From Pigmentiphaga aceris (GTDB taxonomy: Bacteria > Pseudomonadota > Gammaproteobacteria > Burkholderiales > Burkholderiaceae_B): DNA of 64,000 nt. The notes under the pieces were generated by a model. The model made no database searches and had not been told where the DNA came from. It worked only from the letters and a program-made list of their open reading frames with translations. Within the stretch, counting starts at the first letter, position 1, and every line of letters starts with the position of its first letter. Both the position numbers and the translations under genes were made by a program. This document shows, in pieces, positions 5,397 through 12,965 of this stretch. The stretch lies in NCBI RefSeq assembly GCF_008119665.1, contig NZ_CP043046.1, positions 1-64,000 on the forward strand. Reading direction: 5' to 3'.

Positions 5397-5425
5397 GTAT
5401 TTCTGAGCTTTCGGAAAAATAAAAT

Positions 5426-5457
5426 ATATGCCAATTAGAGAAGTCTAATTGGCATAT
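5426..5457. terminator. Perfect 14-bp hairpin after gyrB
   Basis: ATATGCCAATTAGA (5426-5439) and TCTAATTGGCATAT (5444-5457) form a perfect 14-bp stem with a GAAG loop. An A-rich run precedes it and TTTATT follows, so it could terminate gyrB transcription and possibly act in both directions. It marks the left edge of the AT-rich region. Confidence 0.6.
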
Positions 5458-5533
5458 TTATTGAGCATGAAGTTATAAAATTATTTATTTTGATCGTTAT
5501 GCGCGGATGCGTTGGTAGAATTATATTGCCAAT

Positions 5534-5562
5534 GTGAAATTTAAAAAGCGGAAACGTTTCAC
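5534..5562. promoter_or_regulatory. Inverted repeat upstream of the GHKL gene
   Basis: GTGAAA (5534-5539) is mirrored by TTTCAC (5557-5562), and the right part contains the 10-bp perfect palindrome GAAACGTTTC (5551-5560). The site lies 40-70 bp before the GGAGG ribosome site of the island's first gene. It is a plausible operator, but no binding protein can be named. Confidence 0.35.
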
Positions 5563-5630
5563 GTTGAACTACCATTAATCCTATAAATAACAGAACGACG
5601 GAGGCTGACATCTCAAGCGCCCACGCTTCA

Positions 5631-7985
5631 TTGGTTCCTACTACTCTCCATTTCGATGTCAGCAGCGGCTTAAAAAGCGTTCTCGGTAGTGAACTCATAA
5701 CCAACGACGAGGTTGCAATCTTTGAGTTGGTCAAGAATTCGTTCGATGCAGGAGCGAGTCGAGTAGACATACACTTTGATGAAATATCAATTGTTGTTGC
5801 CGACAACGGTATCGGTATGTCGCAGGAGGATATAGAAAAAAAGTGGCTGTTTGTCGCCTATTCTTCCAAGCGTCAACGTGCAACAGATTTTCGCGATGAA
5901 ATCGCTGATAGGCGCAGATACGCAGGTAGTAAAGGAATTGGTCGATTTTCCTCTGATCGACTAGGCGAAATTGTTATTTTGCAATCTCGCCAAAAGTCCG
6001 CTGTGAATGGCCCGGTGCATGCACTTCGAGTTGATTGGAGCCGTTTTGACAAGAACCACTTTGATCGATTCGAAACTATTCCGGTAGAGTATGTGGAGAA
6101 GGTGTCGGGTTTCGGCATCCCCGAAAATCTTCCACTTATTTCGCATGGAACAGCGATTACTATAGAAAAATTGCGTCGAAAATGGAATAGAGATGATATT
6201 CTCGGGCTAAAATCTGCACTTTCTAAACTGATTAACCCCTTCGGTGCCGAATCCGATGGATTTAAGATAGTTGTGCATGCTCCCGCAGAAGAAAACGTTG
6301 ATAAGTTAGAAGCGGCTCAGTTTAATAGTAAGCGTCAGGAAGTATCTCCAAATTCGTTAGTAAATGGCCAGGTTGGGAATTTCATTTTTTCTACATTACA
6401 GGAGAAGACGACTTTCATCGAGGCTCACATTGCTGAAGATGGACGAATTGAAAGTTCTTTAACTGATCGTGGTACATTGATCTACAGGGTCCGAGAACCA
6501 AATCCCTATCCCTTGTTAATTAAAGCTGGGTTTTCAGCAAAAGTTTTCTTCCTTAATCAGTCTGCCAAATTGACTTTTGCCAAGCGGATGGGGGTCCCAT
6601 CCGTTCAATTCGGTTCTATATTTCTGTTTAGAAATGGATTTCGAGTCGTTCCAGTGGGTGAGGAGGGCGACGACTGGTTTGGACTCGACCGTAGAAAGCA
6701 ACAAGGTTTCTCGAGATTTCTTGGGACTCGCGACTTAATTGGTCGAGTGGATGTTTCCGGGACCGACGAGAACTTTCAAGAAGCTTCGAGCCGGGATTCT
6801 GGGCTTATAGCAACCCGAGCTGCACTCCAGTTACGCACGTGTGTAAGAGAGCATTGCGTTAAACGATTGGAGCGGTACGTGGTCCCTGTGACATTTGTCG
6901 ATAAGGAAGACAAGAATACAAGTGACGTTTCACGTCTGCTTACCGATCCCGGCCGGGCCCGGGTTACTGCTGCAGTAGCCAAGCTTGTAGACCATCGAGA
7001 AGTAGAGCTTCTTGACTATAGTCGTAGACTCGTTGGTATTCTTGATGAAAGGTCTTCGCAATTTGAAGCTTCCTTGGGCAGCCTCCGCGCAATCGCAGAA
7101 AAGACTCGCGATAAACTCTTGTTTGACAACATCGAGGAAGCTGAGAACCGTTTTGCAGAGCTGCGTAGGGCGGAAGAATTAGCGCGTGTTCAGGCGGATG
7201 AAGAGCGGCGGGCGAAGGAAAAGGCAGAGCAGCGGGCACAAGCTGCCGAAGTTCAGGCAACTCGCACTAGCGTACAGTTGGAAGAAGAGAAAAAGAGAAA
7301 CCTCTTCTTAACTTCGATAGCATCCTTGGACACGCAGACGATTCTCAATCTTCACCACCAAGTGACAATGTATGCGGTGGATATTAATCAGCAGATCGAG
7401 AATTTCTTAGTCCGTATATCAGGGCAAGATTCTGTTCAGCGGTCTGATCTCCTAAGCGCGCTTGAGAGAATATCTTTGCTCAACAAGAAAGTTATGGGGG
7501 TATCAAAGTTTGCGACAAAGGCAAATTTCCGACTTGAATCGGAACACATTAAGGCTGATTTAGGTGAGTATATTGAGCAGTATATTAATGGTGTAGCAAA
7601 GGATTTTTTATTTGGTCCGTTAAGAGTTAATGTAAAAACAGATGGCAAAGGTATAGAGAGGAAATTCAAACCTATCGATATTTCGGTGGTTGTGGATAAC
7701 CTGATTGCCAATGCGAAGAAGGCTAGAGCAAACAGTATAACCTTTGAAATTTTGCATCCGACGCGGGATTCGGTGCATATATCCGTTACGGATAATGGGA
7801 GAGGTTTTGATAGTCTAATTGACGACTTGGAGAGAGTTTTTGAGAAAGGTTTTACTACAACTGATGGTTCCGGTTTAGGGCTTTACCATGTGCGCATGGT
7901 TCTGGGAGAAATGAACGGAACTATACAAGCGACTAAAGGGCTGGACGGAAAGGGTACAAAGTTCCTAATAAGGATTTCCCGATGA
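5631..7985 (+). CDS. Double-GHKL ATPase / histidine-kinase-like protein
   Basis: A 784-residue protein with two ATP-binding GHKL modules. The N-terminal one resembles the Hsp90/MutL/MORC type: N-box ELVKNSFDA (32-40), DNGIGM (58-63), GSKGIGR (99-105). A charged helical, coiled-coil-like stretch (about 480-560) follows. A DHp-like helix contains LHHQV, with His575 or His576 as possible phosphoacceptor. The C-terminal HATPase_c has NLIANA (690-694), DNGRG (721-725) and GSGLGL (746-751). No membrane segment or signal peptide is seen, so it should be cytoplasmic. Start choice: TTG at 5631 is the first standard start, but GGAGG at 5600-5604 is far from it and better spaced for an in-frame ATC at 5610. 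It overlaps the next gene by ATGA. GC content is low and suggests transfer. Bacterial MORC-like GHKL proteins are known near restriction-modification genes; a signalling role here is inference. Confidence 0.75.
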   Translation: MVPTTLHFDVSSGLKSVLGSELITNDEVAIFELVKNSFDAGASRVDIHFDEISIVVADNGIGMSQEDIEKKWLFVAYSSKRQRATDFRDEIADRRRYAGSKGIGRFSSDRLGEIVILQSRQKSAVNGPVHALRVDWSRFDKNHFDRFETIPVEYVEKVSGFGIPENLPLISHGTAITIEKLRRKWNRDDILGLKSALSKLINPFGAESDGFKIVVHAPAEENVDKLEAAQFNSKRQEVSPNSLVNGQVGNFIFSTLQEKTTFIEAHIAEDGRIESSLTDRGTLIYRVREPNPYPLLIKAGFSAKVFFLNQSAKLTFAKRMGVPSVQFGSIFLFRNGFRVVPVGEEGDDWFGLDRRKQQGFSRFLGTRDLIGRVDVSGTDENFQEASSRDSGLIATRAALQLRTCVREHCVKRLERYVVPVTFVDKEDKNTSDVSRLLTDPGRARVTAAVAKLVDHREVELLDYSRRLVGILDERSSQFEASLGSLRAIAEKTRDKLLFDNIEEAENRFAELRRAEELARVQADEERRAKEKAEQRAQAAEVQATRTSVQLEEEKKRNLFLTSIASLDTQTILNLHHQVTMYAVDINQQIENFLVRISGQDSVQRSDLLSALERISLLNKKVMGVSKFATKANFRLESEHIKADLGEYIEQYINGVAKDFLFGPLRVNVKTDGKGIERKFKPIDISVVVDNLIANAKKARANSITFEILHPTRDSVHISVTDNGRGFDSLIDDLERVFEKGFTTTDGSGLGLYHVRMVLGEMNGTIQATKGLDGKGTKFLIRISR

Positions 7986-8902
7986 GACTGGACTTCAACT
8001 TGCTATGGGTCGAAAATCAACAAGACTTAGTGCAATCTCAGCGAGAGAAGCTAGAGCGAGATGTACGTGCGCAAGGCTTCCGGCTTCAAGTCAAGTTTAT
8101 GGAGACAGTTGAAGCGGCAATTGAGTGCTTGGCGGATGACGTCTATAGCGACCATGTCGACCTGATTTTAATGGATTACGACTTGGGCCCTGGGAAAAAA
8201 GGGGATGAAGGGTTGATAGAAGTTCGGGCGCTAATCCCCTACCGAGATGTCGTTTTCTACTCATCGCAGGCCGGAGACCTTAATGCCATGGTGCTCAAAC
8301 ATGGTGTGCAAGGAGTTTTTTGTTCCACGCGAAATGAGCTCCCAGACACAGCTTTCGGTGTTTTTGAATCATTGGTAAAAAAGGTCGTCGATATTGATCA
8401 CTCACGCGGCATAGTAATGGGTACTACGAGTGATATAGATCATTACGTAATGGACGCGCTAGCGGATGCATTTGACGGATGTGCGGAAGAGAAACAACAG
8501 GAAACTCTCGATCAGATAAAAAAAGATGTAGAAAAAATCCGTGGAAAATTTGAAGCGGCAGTAACCGCGATATTAGCGGCGAAACATCCGTCGGAGCTTT
8601 TTGAACAGCATGCCATATATACGAGTATTGATCGTCTACAGCTATTAAGGAAAGTGCTTAGATCAAAAGCGCAGACCGGAGATTGGGACAAAAAATTGTT
8701 AGCTTATATAGAAGGCGCAATCCCAAAGAGAAATATGCTCGCTCATGTCCGCGTTGAGGTAAACGGATTTATCAGAAAGCTGGTAAACCGAAAAGGTGAA
8801 GAACACACCAGCGCGCACATGAAGAGACTTAGACTAGATCTACTGCAACATCACGAAGAGTTCGAGAAGCTTTCTCAACTTCTAAAGACCCGCCGGGAGT
8901 AA
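7982..8902 (+). CDS. Receiver-like protein with C-terminal HEPN-type motif
   Basis: 306 residues, translationally coupled to the kinase-like gene by an ATGA overlap. The N-terminal half (1-135) is receiver-like: hydrophobic strand LLWVEN, then LILMDYDLG with Asp65 at the phosphoacceptor position, and VVFYSS. The second acidic residue of the usual pair is Asn12, and the conserved C-terminal Lys is missing (FCSTRNEL), so phosphorylation chemistry may be altered. The C-terminal half (about 160-306) is helical and contains RNMLAH (Arg250-His255), the R-x4-H arrangement typical of HEPN ribonuclease domains, with a strand and further helices after it. The 3' end overlaps the methyltransferase gene on the other strand by 74 bp. 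Ribonuclease activity is inferred from the motif only. Confidence 0.7.
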   Translation: MRLDFNLLWVENQQDLVQSQREKLERDVRAQGFRLQVKFMETVEAAIECLADDVYSDHVDLILMDYDLGPGKKGDEGLIEVRALIPYRDVVFYSSQAGDLNAMVLKHGVQGVFCSTRNELPDTAFGVFESLVKKVVDIDHSRGIVMGTTSDIDHYVMDALADAFDGCAEEKQQETLDQIKKDVEKIRGKFEAAVTAILAAKHPSELFEQHAIYTSIDRLQLLRKVLRSKAQTGDWDKKLLAYIEGAIPKRNMLAHVRVEVNGFIRKLVNRKGEEHTSAHMKRLRLDLLQHHEEFEKLSQLLKTRRE

Positions 8903-10142
8903 TGGCCGTTCTTAAGTAGGCTATAAGAGCATTTCCAATTGCCTCGGCAACAAGGGGAGGCACAGCATTCGCAACCTGTGTAAATCGAGGTACTTCTCGC
9001 CGTCTACGCTCACCGCCAGTAGTATATTTTCCTTTAAATACAAAATTATCTGGAAAACTTTGAAGACGTGCATTTTCTCTCACTGTTAATGTTCGAGGTT
9101 CTCCATAATGGATAAGATCGTCTGGCATGCTTGTGATGGTAGGTGACGGACTTTCTGGATCTAAAACTCTTATAGCGCATTTCTTAAGCCCAAAGCTTGC
9201 GCGTAGTTCGGGAGAGATTGAAGTATTTAGTCTACCGTCTGCATGACAAACTTCTATAAGTTTCTTAAACCTGGCTTGGATCTCAGGCTTGTGTCGTGCG
9301 AGTCGGGTGTCAGTTATTGCATTCGCAATGCCAGTATTCATCAGTCGTTGGTATGACGTAAGTGGTCCTTCATAAGCAATTTCCTCGAAATTTTCAGAAT
9401 CGCTACTCGGTCGAACGCCGTTTCGCGTAATCTCGAGGTCAGAAATTGCAGTCATCGAAGATACTGGGACTGATAGCCCTTTCGCTGCAAGAAATGAATC
9501 TCGCATTTGCTCAAGAAATTGAAATGGATTTTCACCATAGCCTGCTTCGATATCCCGGCGAACTGCAATAATGAAAAATCTTTTTCTTTTTTGCGGCACG
9601 CCAAATAACGATGTATCAAGAATCTGAGAGCAAACTTCATAATCCGGAGATAGGCTTTGAATGATCTGTTTCGCGTAATTGATTTTTCCGCTTTCTTGGC
9701 TAATTTCGTCAAAATCTATCGCGATACCTTTCACGTTCTCAATAAGAACGACCTTAGGTCTAACGAGCGACACAAACTCTAAGTATGATGTAGTTAAATG
9801 ATTTCTTGGGTCATTTGCAATGCGTCGTCCAGCGGCGGAAAAGCCTTGGCATGGTGGGCCTCCTGCGAGCAAGTCAACTTTGCCTCTAAGAGCAATTAGC
9901 GAATCACGGTGACTGGCAAGCACGTCATCGATCCCGTGGGTGCTTTTGGGCAACCATTTTGGCCATGAAAACTGTCTTTTGCTGCCCGGACTTATTAAAT
10001 TTGCATAGAGGCTGGCAAATGCATTTTCATCTTTTTCAACGGCGAATAAGCCTTTCCATCCGGCCGCCATTAGTCCATAACTAAGCCCCCCGCAGCCTGC
10101 GAAGATATCAATAAATGTAAATTTCTTTTTTATCTTGAACAT
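8829..10142 (-). CDS. DNA (cytosine-5-)-methyltransferase
   Basis: 437-residue C5-cytosine methyltransferase of the Dcm type that transfers a methyl group from SAM to C5 of cytosine in a target sequence. Motif I FIDIFAGCGGLSYGL is at the N-terminus. Motif IV GGPPCQGFS carries the catalytic Cys. Motif VI ENVKG, motif VIII QKRKRFFI and motif X QVANAVPPLVAEAIG follow in order. The target recognition region lies between motifs VIII and IX. The recognition site cannot be read. It is convergent with the receiver-HEPN gene and overlaps it by 74 bp. No adjacent restriction endonuclease of a recognised family is seen. Base composition is AT-rich like the rest of the island. Confidence 0.93.
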   Translation of the reverse strand: MFKIKKKFTFIDIFAGCGGLSYGLMAAGWKGLFAVEKDENAFASLYANLISPGSKRQFSWPKWLPKSTHGIDDVLASHRDSLIALRGKVDLLAGGPPCQGFSAAGRRIANDPRNHLTTSYLEFVSLVRPKVVLIENVKGIAIDFDEISQESGKINYAKQIIQSLSPDYEVCSQILDTSLFGVPQKRKRFFIIAVRRDIEAGYGENPFQFLEQMRDSFLAAKGLSVPVSSMTAISDLEITRNGVRPSSDSENFEEIAYEGPLTSYQRLMNTGIANAITDTRLARHKPEIQARFKKLIEVCHADGRLNTSISPELRASFGLKKCAIRVLDPESPSPTITSMPDDLIHYGEPRTLTVRENARLQSFPDNFVFKGKYTTGGERRRREVPRFTQVANAVPPLVAEAIGNALIAYLRTAITPGGSLEVEKASRTLRDVAVDLV

Positions 10143-10157
10143 CTTTCACCAGCCTAC

Positions 10158-10186
10158 GTCGCACAGGAAAATTTTAGCAGTGCGAC
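10158..10186. promoter_or_regulatory. Inverted repeat over the methyltransferase promoter
   Basis: GTCGCAC (10158-10164) and GTGCGAC (10180-10186) form a perfect 7-bp inverted repeat with a 15-bp AT-rich spacer. On the minus strand the spacer contains TAAAAT, a likely -10 for the methyltransferase gene that starts at 10142. The placement suggests an operator controlling methyltransferase expression. Confidence 0.45.
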
Positions 10187-10373
10187 TAACATGCAAGGTT
10201 ATCGGAAAAATTGACTGCGCGCCACTCTAAACAGAGATTGATCAAAGACTGCTCTATTCAAAAGGGTAAAATGCCACAGACTTATATTTTGGCTAGTTTG
10301 CCAATAGGGTGTTCCAACTGCGTTGACGTTGATCCAATTTAAGCCAGAAGATGTTTGATTAAACTTGCCAATC

Positions 10374-11483
10374 TTAGAAATTCAGCATGCGGGTGACGCC
10401 GACCTTTCCAATGTGATGAGATCCGTGCGCTGCTGCTGCAGTAGCTGTTGGCTTAAATCCAGCTGGATGCGCGAGGTTGTGAACCCAATCTTTACCTATG
10501 TCTGTTAAGGCGTCGTACCACTCGGGAGAAAAATGACAGTTTTCAGACGTTAGCAACAAAAGTGCTGCTATCACACTTGGCACATCGCTTTGCGGCAGGT
10601 TGCTAATCGAGTTAGCTAGCTTTGCCGACACTTGTGCACTGTACTCAAGCCACGCTAGTAAGAAATAGCTTTTGCCGTCTGCTGCAAATGAAACGAGAGC
10701 AGTGCTTTGCGGAAGACGGGGTGTATCGTCCATTTCTTGCAAAGTAATTCCATTTATATCTTCAATAGGAGACCAGGCCGCCGAGCACTGAATAGGGAAT
10801 ATTTGATCGAACTCCACGAGTAAGCCGTGGCAATCGTTCCAACGTTCGTTGGTTAGTGTTTCGTCATAACTTTTCTTGTGTGACCTTATATCACGAAAAC
10901 CAAGCTCATTAATGTAATTAAATTGACCTATAAATTCTCGTAGTTGTTTATTTTGAGATTTTGTAAGCGCAGCTCGTAATTGCGAATTTTGGTCAGAGCG
11001 TTGTTTTGCATAAAGCTCCCACACTATTGACCGATAGCTCAGCAGGAAACACTGCTGTTGACTACCCGAGAAAGCTTCGTCTTCCAGGGCAGCGAACAAC
11101 TGTTTATCGTGAAGAGAGCAAAAGCCTGGAAACGTTGACGCATCTTTCCACCCTGTCAATTTTGGAACTAATCGTCCGCCCATTTCGTCCAGGCGCTTAA
11201 TGCTAAATGCGTTTGAATAGACGTGGCCATTTTTTGCTATCTCTCCGAGACTTCCACTTCTAGATACAGTGTGAGAGGCTATAGGATTACCACTGCATTG
11301 GTGCAGCAGGCCTTCCGGAGCCAAGAATTTTGGTTTTTTAGCTGATTTTTTTATTTGAGCATCTATCTGTCCCGGCTTTAGTGTTGGAGTGGCATTAATA
11401 CCTCCGTGGCATCGCTTGTACTTCTTTTTTGACCCACAGGGACATAACTGGTTTCTACCTATCTTAGTTGTTCGTGCGGTCAT
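10374..11483 (-). CDS. SEC-C motif protein with a second Cys/His site
   Basis: 369-residue protein of unknown function. Near the N-terminus is a SEC-C zinc motif, CPCGSKKKYKRCH, with ligands Cys14, Cys16, Cys25 and His26. Further on, C-x7-H (Cys63, His71, in CSGNPIASH) and C-x2-H-D (Cys122, His125, Asp126, in FCSLHD) could form a second metal site; an HNH-like nuclease fold is possible but not shown. The rest is helical with no recognised domain. I start at ATG 11483 because GGAG lies just upstream and it puts SEC-C at the N-terminus as usual; the frame is open to 11708, with another ATG at 11588. It points the same way as the methyltransferase gene, 231 bp upstream of it, and shares its low GC. 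Confidence 0.7.
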   Translation of the reverse strand: MTARTTKIGRNQLCPCGSKKKYKRCHGGINATPTLKPGQIDAQIKKSAKKPKFLAPEGLLHQCSGNPIASHTVSRSGSLGEIAKNGHVYSNAFSIKRLDEMGGRLVPKLTGWKDASTFPGFCSLHDKQLFAALEDEAFSGSQQQCFLLSYRSIVWELYAKQRSDQNSQLRAALTKSQNKQLREFIGQFNYINELGFRDIRSHKKSYDETLTNERWNDCHGLLVEFDQIFPIQCSAAWSPIEDINGITLQEMDDTPRLPQSTALVSFAADGKSYFLLAWLEYSAQVSAKLANSISNLPQSDVPSVIAALLLLTSENCHFSPEWYDALTDIGKDWVHNLAHPAGFKPTATAAAAHGSHHIGKVGVTRMLNF

Positions 11484-11807
11484 GATCTCCGACTTTATAA
11501 ATTCATTGCAGGTTAATGGTGTGGTGGAAATTATAGCTGAGGCTGTGGCAGCCACTTTATCTGTTGCACTTAATTTTTGCCTCCCCATCTTTGGGATCCA
11601 ATTTATGTAAATAATATTGAGGGCGACAAGGTTTTCTACGGCCGCGAACGCTAGCACGCCGTTGAAATACCTCCATGGAATGTAAGCATCTCCACGGCGG
11701 TTAGGCACGTTGAGGTTTTACGGCCCGTTGGTTTCGAACAGATGGCCAACAGACCCTTTTTCAGCCTCAAGCGCAGCCCGATGACGCTTTATTCGCCCGC
11801 TGCTCCC
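11484..11807. other. Right edge of AT-rich island, no confident gene
   Basis: This 324-bp stretch holds the upstream region of the SEC-C gene, whose frame stays open on the minus strand to 11708. Composition turns from AT-rich to GC-rich at about 11640-11700. From about 11750 the sequence belongs to the end of the IS5-type remnant (note TTTTTCAGCC at 11757). I see no other gene. Confidence 0.4.
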
Positions 11808-12588
11808 TCATTGGACGCACGTCGGGCGTGTTTGCGACAAGGTGCGCAGCCGGGTTAGGTGGTAAGCCGCCATCGTCAGCGTCACAAACTGGTCGACCTT
11901 GGCGAGTTCTTGCCCATCCCCTGGCGCATCGGGCCGATCACCTTGCCCCAGCCGAAGCACTGCTCGATACGCTCTCGCTTGCGCTGGCTGACCTCGTAGC
12001 CAGGATGCCGCGTGGTGCGTCCGTCGATGGCGCTGCCGCCGTTGCGCGCTGTGTTCTGCGCCACGTGCGGGGTGACCTTGATCTGTCGGCACGCCTTGAC
12101 GAAGTCCTTTGTGTCGTAGGCGTTGTCGGCACCCACTGTCACGCGTTTGCCCTGGTCGGCGACATCGGCAGGCATCCGCGACGCCGCCTCGCGTTCGGCC
12201 GTGCCATCAGAGGTGCTGGCTTGCACGTTGACGACCAGCCCGTGACGGTTGTCCGTCATCACATGGCCCAAGTAACTCGGCAGCGCAGGCGCTGCATTTC
12301 TCTTGCGATACAGCCCCGACTGCGAGTCGCTCGTGGACTCGTGAGTATCGTTGCTGCGCGGCTCGCCGCGCCTGTTCTCAGGCGGATGCCCGTCGTCCGA
12401 TCCGTCCTCGCGCCGCATGCTCTTATGGCTGGCCCAGGCCTGGATCAGCGTCCCGTCCACACTGAAGTGTTCGCCCAACAGCAGCCTGCGTTTGTCGGCC
12501 ATCTCCACCGTCGCGTTGAACAGCTCACTGACCGTATCGTGCTCGATGAGTTGGTCGCGGTTCTTGCTGAAGACCGAGTGATTCAACA
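11808..12588 (-). pseudogene. IS5-family transposase remnant, truncated and frameshifted
   Basis: The minus strand encodes the middle and end of an IS5-type DDE transposase: FSKNRDQL, EHFSVDGTLIQAWASHKS, then GADNAYDTKDFV, and the C-terminal KVDQFVTLTMAAYHLTRLRTLS. About the first 100 residues are missing; homology begins abruptly near 12588, a few bases before the ribosome site of the VOC gene. A single-base frameshift near 11915 puts the C-terminus in another frame. It cannot make an active transposase. It sits exactly between the AT-rich island and the GC-rich backbone and may record how the island arrived or how this border was rearranged. Confidence 0.88.
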
Positions 12589-12602
12589 CCGGAGAATTCT
12601 TC

Positions 12603-12965
12603 ATGCAAAACACCCGCTTCGGGCAGGCCATCTCTGTACTCACATCGCTCGACATGGCGCGCACGCTTGCGTACTACAATCAGGTGTTGGGCTTTAAAAC
12701 GACCCATTTCAAAGACCATGCTTACGGCATCGCCGTACGTGCTGATGTCGAGTTGCATTTCTGGGCATGCTCAGACAAACACATCGCCGAAAACACCTCG
12801 TGCTACATCCACGTGCACGACATCCAGGCCGTGCATCGCGACCTCAGCCTGCGCTTCCCCAATCTCTCACCAATCGTTCATGCGCCCTGGGGTATGGACG
12901 AGTTCCATTTGATCGATCCGGATGGCAATCTGATCAAGTTTGGACAGGATTCCGCCGCGTTGTAA
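12603..12965 (+). CDS. VOC (glyoxalase/bleomycin-resistance) family protein
   Basis: 120-residue single-domain protein of the vicinal oxygen chelate superfamily. The paired beta-alpha-beta-beta-beta units are recognisable: SLDMARTLAYYNQVLGF at the start of the first, and DEFHLIDPDGNLIKFGQ, the typical closing strand with a metal-ligand Glu/His pattern, at the end. The substrate cannot be told; members include glyoxalases, dioxygenases and antibiotic-binding proteins. GGAG at 12590-12593 supports ATG 12603. The gene starts immediately beside the truncated IS5 remnant, so its original upstream region has probably been replaced. Confidence 0.8.
   Translation: MQNTRFGQAISVLTSLDMARTLAYYNQVLGFKTTHFKDHAYGIAVRADVELHFWACSDKHIAENTSCYIHVHDIQAVHRDLSLRFPNLSPIVHAPWGMDEFHLIDPDGNLIKFGQDSAAL

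Follow-up and report, generated by a model that had tools for sequence, protein, structure and literature searches.

Introduction

Detocs reportedly comprises three genes and, in the case described best, an ATP-cleaving PNP effector. It is an accepted defensive two-component system (PMC11249213), and two-component-like systems of the HEF_HK/Response_reg_2 type with a C5 cytosine methylase were described in 2021 (Bellieny-Rabelo et al., PMC8011034). paraMORC proteins with a fused Ymh-HEPN domain occur in restriction-modification (R-M) neighborhoods (PMC3710099), and those lying beside DNA methylases were proposed by the authors to act like PrrC/RloC (PMC3710099, PMC2292703). Here we analyze a locus of Pigmentiphaga aceris (contig NZ_CP043046.1, positions 1 to 64,000; this whole stretch of 64,000 nucleotides is called the window), in which a double-GHKL kinase, a receiver protein with a HEPN-like C-terminus and a C5 cytosine DNA methyltransferase are encoded side by side. 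We interpret these genes, from sequence comparison, as a predicted DNA-modification-coupled two-component defense module, a reading to which we assign a probability of roughly 0.58. The kinase probably activates an RNA-cutting enzyme, and the usual travel of the kinase-receiver pair with a DNA-marking enzyme suggests an alarm that would halt the cell on unmarked foreign DNA.

Results

The kinase, receiver and C5 methyltransferase genes constitute a real conserved unit. Linkage was assessed in 14 related loci, obtained by scanning genomes with the receiver profile, which span alpha-, beta-, gamma- and deltaproteobacteria, Acidobacteria, Ignavibacteria and Verrucomicrobia. Kinase and receiver genes are adjacent in all 14 (the kinase is split into two open reading frames (ORFs) in L010 and truncated where the contig stops in L016), and share a 4-bp overlap in 13. 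Thirteen of the loci have a linked C5 methyltransferase, 12 times within the examined stretch and once, in L014, about 10 kb away beyond Vsr, a DndH-like protein and two uncharacterized genes; in L010, the locus where no methyltransferase was seen, the contig runs only 24 bases beyond the receiver gene. The methyltransferase and receiver genes overlap tail-to-tail by 28-113 bp in 10 of the 14 loci, and by 74 bp in the window. Across 12 loci, kinase and receiver distances are correlated (Mantel r 0.79, 1/5000 permutations), whereas methyltransferase distances are uncorrelated with those of either partner (r 0.19 and 0.21; 1309 and 1087 of 5000 permutations). The divergence of kinase and receiver is thus correlated, and we take these two as the core and the methyltransferase as swappable. 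Within the nine tail-to-tail loci, the kinase correlates with the methyltransferase (r 0.71, 18/5000 permutations), the receiver does not (r 0.04), and the kinase-receiver correlation is weaker (r 0.50, 149/5000 permutations). Among 369 genomes of the same taxonomic class, 10 match: the window's own, one full-length distant relative (G427) and eight with the receiver only.

Domain matches identify the first gene product as a MutL/MORC-type GHKL module fused to a histidine-kinase ATPase. Pfam places HATPase_c_3 at amino acids (aa) 27-155 and HATPase_c at aa 681-782, with a coiled coil and a DHp-like helix bearing His576 between them. According to NCBIfam and PDB profile searches, the first ATPase is akin to MutL, HtpG and BbrUII/HgiDII; the second resembles sensor kinases. 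Of 26 positions checked, two, Val687 among them, are more variable; at the others the ATP-site residues are kept in 131-133 of 133 family members, and His576 is present in 133/133 members and in 17/17 of a wider set. The double-GHKL identity given to this protein in the first-pass annotation is therefore upheld by the domain matches, the NCBIfam search and the wider alignment. A kinase search covering 101 relatives gave 80 with E-values up to 0.001, all of which, besides the window's own, were partial GHKL-domain matches of at most 42.5 bits. Where the kinase gene starts, and whether it is expressed, is uncertain because the window has no ATG at the position where its relatives start. The in-frame codons at 5595-5631, upstream of the TTG, appear by eye homologous to the N-termini of relatives that have an ATG start there.

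The kinship of the first ATPase raises the question whether the locus could be an atypical type II restriction system, with the GHKL protein as its restriction enzyme, as in BbrUII/HgiDII, and the receiver protein as a regulatory partner. The NCBIfam BbrUII/HgiDII model covers aa 17-216 of the kinase (E 2.9e-24), PADLOC REase_II covers aa 29-110 (E 9.9e-9), and the locus includes a DNA methyltransferase. Vsr nucleases, the only nucleases found in the part of the neighboring genes that was scanned, also accompany three of the 14 loci (L011, L014 and L015). The NCBIfam match, however, is to the ATPase module only and reaches 85.6 bits, below the cut-off of 550, the remainder of the protein is a kinase with a conserved His and ATP site, and neither Pfam nor NCBIfam finds a nuclease domain in it. 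We consider this explanation quite improbable.

The second protein consists of a receiver domain (aa 1-137) followed by a helical C-terminal domain (aa 140-306) that contains the motif R250-N-x-L-A-H255. Conservation was measured over 135 entries, namely 120 listed homologues, the 14 loci and one distant relative, some proteins being entered twice. Asp65, Arg250, Leu253 and His255 occur in 135/135 entries, and the R250-x4-H255 spacing fits the HEPN Rx4-6H motif. In the HEPN superfamily a polar residue (N, D or H) directly follows the motif R, and the motif lies where a helix ends and a beta-hairpin follows (PMC3710099). At the former position Asn251 is found in 134 entries and Ser in one. A second acidic residue, Asp217, stands in a helix ahead of the motif in 126 of the 135 entries, its distance from the following basic residues differing from that in the helix-2 Ex3[KR] motif of HEPN. 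A model of the C-terminus (predicted local distance difference test score, pLDDT, 90) puts the R at local residue 111 in a helix spanning 96-115 and the H at 116, followed by a beta-hairpin at 118-129 and a final helix at 138-166, which is where the HEPN literature places the motif (PMC3710099). Alignment of the C-terminus with a HEPN_MAE_28990 profile by hhalign sets RN-x-L-AH in register with RN-x-I-AH at a probability of 10% over 40 columns, with a score of 25.6 against a maximum of 16.6 among 60 column shuffles. This profile was made from eight proteins of the HEPN_MAE_28990 search, leaving out the weak loci L126 and L127; the ORF that it includes from L121 is probably the wrong one, and HEPN_LA2681, found in two genomes only, was not used. 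The first-pass annotation had called this a receiver-HEPN protein, and the invariant motif, the model and the profile alignment agree with it: on these sequence and model data, the C-terminal domain is probably HEPN.

Structure searches with the C-terminus in the PDB and among viral models gave no significant match to HEPN or to any other fold, and thus none to a nuclease, while those with the full receiver-protein model matched receivers alone. A PDB sequence search with the receiver profile yielded one receiver domain only (E 0.009-0.013) and two chance hits. Some HEPN domains are themselves thought to be non-catalytic (PMC3710099). This, with the missing nuclease match in the structure searches, could suit a genuine two-component regulator of the methyltransferase, or of another restriction system, whose C-terminus is a non-catalytic dimerization or RNA-binding domain; the 2021 authors suggest for a related class that signaling controls R-M systems (PMC8011034). 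Such a regulator is nonetheless unlikely, given that Pfam scans of the receiver protein detect no DNA-binding output domain (and no PNP domain), that a non-catalytic domain would hardly account for an invariant R-N-x-L-A-H, and that candidate effector enzymes, HNH and MBL proteins among them, are encoded next to related plasmid kinase pairs. The receiver protein has no match in PADLOC 2023, in searches of plasmids and phages, or in E. coli at the DNA level.

The kinase is found in wider company than this arrangement. In G427, whose receiver protein and kinase are 27% and 42% identical to those of the window, the pair lies behind a DndH-like protein, two uncharacterized genes and a cytosine methylase, in the same order as in L014. 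This backbone consists of the C5 methylase, two uncharacterized proteins (about 710 and 515-524 aa) and a DndH-like protein of 1833-1843 aa, with the pair attached (Table 1); on a Sinorhizobium plasmid (L105/L107) the same backbone occurs with Vsr and without the kinase-receiver pair. Plasmid matches to the kinase amount to 97 records, of which 20 were listed and 12 examined in sequence. In these 12 kinases the aligned ATP-site residues are kept in at least 16 of 17 alignment rows, and Glu follows His576 in 11. The next gene has a receiver-like start by eye in 12/12, backed by a profile or Pfam match or by annotation in four (L104, L106, L110 and L116). A methyltransferase is annotated in nine of the 12 stretches, in one case merely as class I S-adenosylmethionine-dependent, and neither a methyltransferase nor a PAPS reductase is annotated in L113 and L115. 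On a Polaromonas plasmid (L111) the kinase pair stands between an FtsK/SpoIIIE protein and a PAPS reductase, a gene context suggestive of phosphorothioation. Other neighbors include an MBL-fold protein in L109 and L110 (Pfam) and L113 (annotation), an HNH protein in L106 and, after the pair in L104 (8791-9471), a 226-aa protein with ISHG and SCGTA segments that is CHAT/caspase-like by eye and has no Pfam match. No HEPN-like C-terminus was seen in the 12 stretches. We tentatively propose, with somewhat less confidence than an even chance would warrant, a broad unnamed class in bacteria and an archaeon, in which the MutL/MORC-like kinase and receiver would act as an exchangeable alarm. Its putative modifiers would be a C5 methylase, an N6 methylase, a DndH-like translocase with a C5 methylase or phosphorothioation-type genes, and its putative killers the receiver-fused HEPN of the window and, elsewhere, HNH, MBL-fold and CHAT-like neighbors.

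Several of these loci lie in mobile contexts. An integrase is found upstream in L015 and L018 and a resolvase in L019, and in L012 (13150-16792) TniQ and a Mu-type transposase adjoin the methyltransferase gene, so that this module seems to ride on a transposon. The Pararobbsia silviterrae contig with the module (L017) is also classed as viral in IMG/VR (L061), and a scan of viral contigs returned one locus, this same match. The contig also bears a piece of a D12-class adenine methyltransferase. The pairing of a methyltransferase with a toxin is akin to selfish R-M behavior, and the module could accordingly be a post-segregational killing unit, in which loss of methylation rather than phage would trigger the RNase and so keep the island. 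The mobile contexts bear the same resemblance, which is also discussed in PMC8011034. Sequence alone cannot separate a selfish unit from a defense, and kinase pairs beside phosphorothioation-type and N6-methylase genes are consistent with either; we hold the selfish unit to be the least probable of the explanations weighed here.

In the window, the genes belong to a block extending from 5397 to about 11750 (Table 1), which begins after gyrB and has a GC content of 41-49%, compared with 59-67% upstream of it. DNA homology stops at gyrB in 10/10 other genomes of the genus, each of which has a different sequence 3′ of gyrB, so that these ten do not reveal an empty site. The original description of an AT-rich block of four genes after gyrB, closed by a dead IS5 copy, is confirmed. 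The same description had treated all four genes as one linked set; linkage across phyla stands for the first three in the 14 loci and fails for the SEC-C gene, which is absent from every one of them and was rejected as a module component. A SEC-C search found 82 proteins at E-values up to 0.001, itself included. Three plasmid relatives, among 20 listed from a total of 28 records, lie beside his genes, conjugation genes, or IS6 and mixed genes, and 300 genomes from the order, when searched, gave mostly the short SEC-C motif of SecA-sized ORFs and one partial relative besides its own. The SEC-C protein is a probable passenger outside the module.

Table 1. Features of the window and loci with a DndH-like backbone
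Feature	Coordinates	Strand	Remarks
Double-GHKL kinase gene	5631..7985	+	784 aa from TTG, start uncertain; ATP-site and His576 conservation
Receiver + HEPN-like protein gene	7982..8902	+	306 aa; 4-bp overlap with kinase gene
C5 cytosine DNA methyltransferase gene	8829..10142	-	437 aa; 74-bp tail-to-tail overlap with receiver gene
SEC-C protein gene	10374..11489	-	start probably at 11489, ORF open from 11708; probable passenger
Inverted repeat, gyrB/kinase gene interval	5421..5462	.	19-nt arms, 89% complementary, 4-nt loop; strong; terminator-like
Broken IS5-type transposase closing the block	11808..12664	-	ORF and domain reading
DndH-like backbone with pair	L014:11032-18613, L085:10773-19500; L073:9035-19001 and L079:350-5766

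Discussion

C5 methyltransferases methylate DNA, MutL/MORC GHKL modules are ATP-driven clamps whose eukaryotic MORC relatives act on methylated chromatin, two-component proteins transfer phosphate from His to Asp, and HEPN enzymes cut RNA metal-independently. We propose that the methyltransferase, judging from its family, would mark host DNA, and that the N-terminal GHKL module of the kinase, as kin of the MutL/MORC DNA clamps, would engage foreign or unmethylated DNA or respond to loss of methylation. The C-terminal ATPase would then phosphorylate His576, from which the phosphate may pass to Asp65 of the receiver, both residues being conserved. The receiver would in turn release or dimerize the HEPN-like domain, whose motif is observed and whose fold and activity are predicted, leading to RNA cleavage and growth arrest; the sensing step and the stop of translation put forward in the first-pass annotation are likewise predictions. 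The kinase-receiver pair would be the conserved core of this scheme, the methyltransferase an exchangeable part and SEC-C a passenger. More speculatively, transcription of the methyltransferase gene may damp the effector gene through their tail-to-tail overlap. The 2021 account left related systems as two-component-like pairs perhaps regulating R-M (PMC8011034). If our interpretation is true, a HEPN-like effector on the receiver would make such pairs self-contained immune systems running from DNA mark to kinase, phosphate and RNase, in which a MORC-type ATPase would read the state of DNA and signal that state. The combination of kinase, receiver and modifier is also a marker for finding further effectors.

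The proposed module shares with Detocs the logic of a kinase acting on a receiver-linked toxic effector, for which Detocs is a functional precedent, and differs from it in its HEPN-like effector, its putative sensor of MutL/MORC type and its linked methyltransferase, with no PNP domain in Pfam scans. Like the paraMORC-HEPN proteins (PMC3710099), it places a GHKL ATPase and what is here a putative HEPN RNase beside DNA methylases; here, however, the ATPase and the HEPN-like domain are on two proteins, linked by a predicted phosphorelay. L014 and L073 recall the DndFGH and HerA/FtsK capture systems by adding the large DndH-like protein and a cytosine methylase, whereas the main text of PMC10853773 names no receiver, histidine kinase, MORC or GHKL. 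The legend of predicted systems in DefensePredictor (PMC13092281) names HATPase and REC and may show a relative.

The HEF_HK/Response_reg_2 systems are a sister class of this module. Both have a kinase with HATPase_c_3, DHp and HATPase_c adjoining a receiver protein, a C5 methylase nearby, a soluble nature and a patchy, mobile distribution. At E 0.1 the kinase of the window nevertheless has no PF19191 match and its receiver protein no PF19192 match, nor did a PF19192 search of the window's genome find any. Response_reg_2 hits occur in seven of 200 genomes, five loci showing the published arrangement of a C5 methylase, a kinase of about 1000 aa and a receiver ORF. These ORFs, 567-721 aa long in the seven genomes, contrast with the 306 aa of the window's receiver protein; only a 43-column receiver stretch aligned when the two profiles were compared, and the seven aligned C-termini display no conserved shared HEPN motif. 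PMC8011034 names no effector domain, and among the papers listed in our literature searches for a named system none joins this kinase class to HEPN. The first-pass annotation knew of no named system with this exact gene set, which remains true of PADLOC 2023 but has to be qualified, as the class of kinase, receiver and C5 methylase was described in 2021 (PMC8011034). What is new here is the HEPN-like effector, together with the plasmid kinase pairs, whose neighbors include further putative effectors (MBL, HNH) and DNA modifiers of other kinds.
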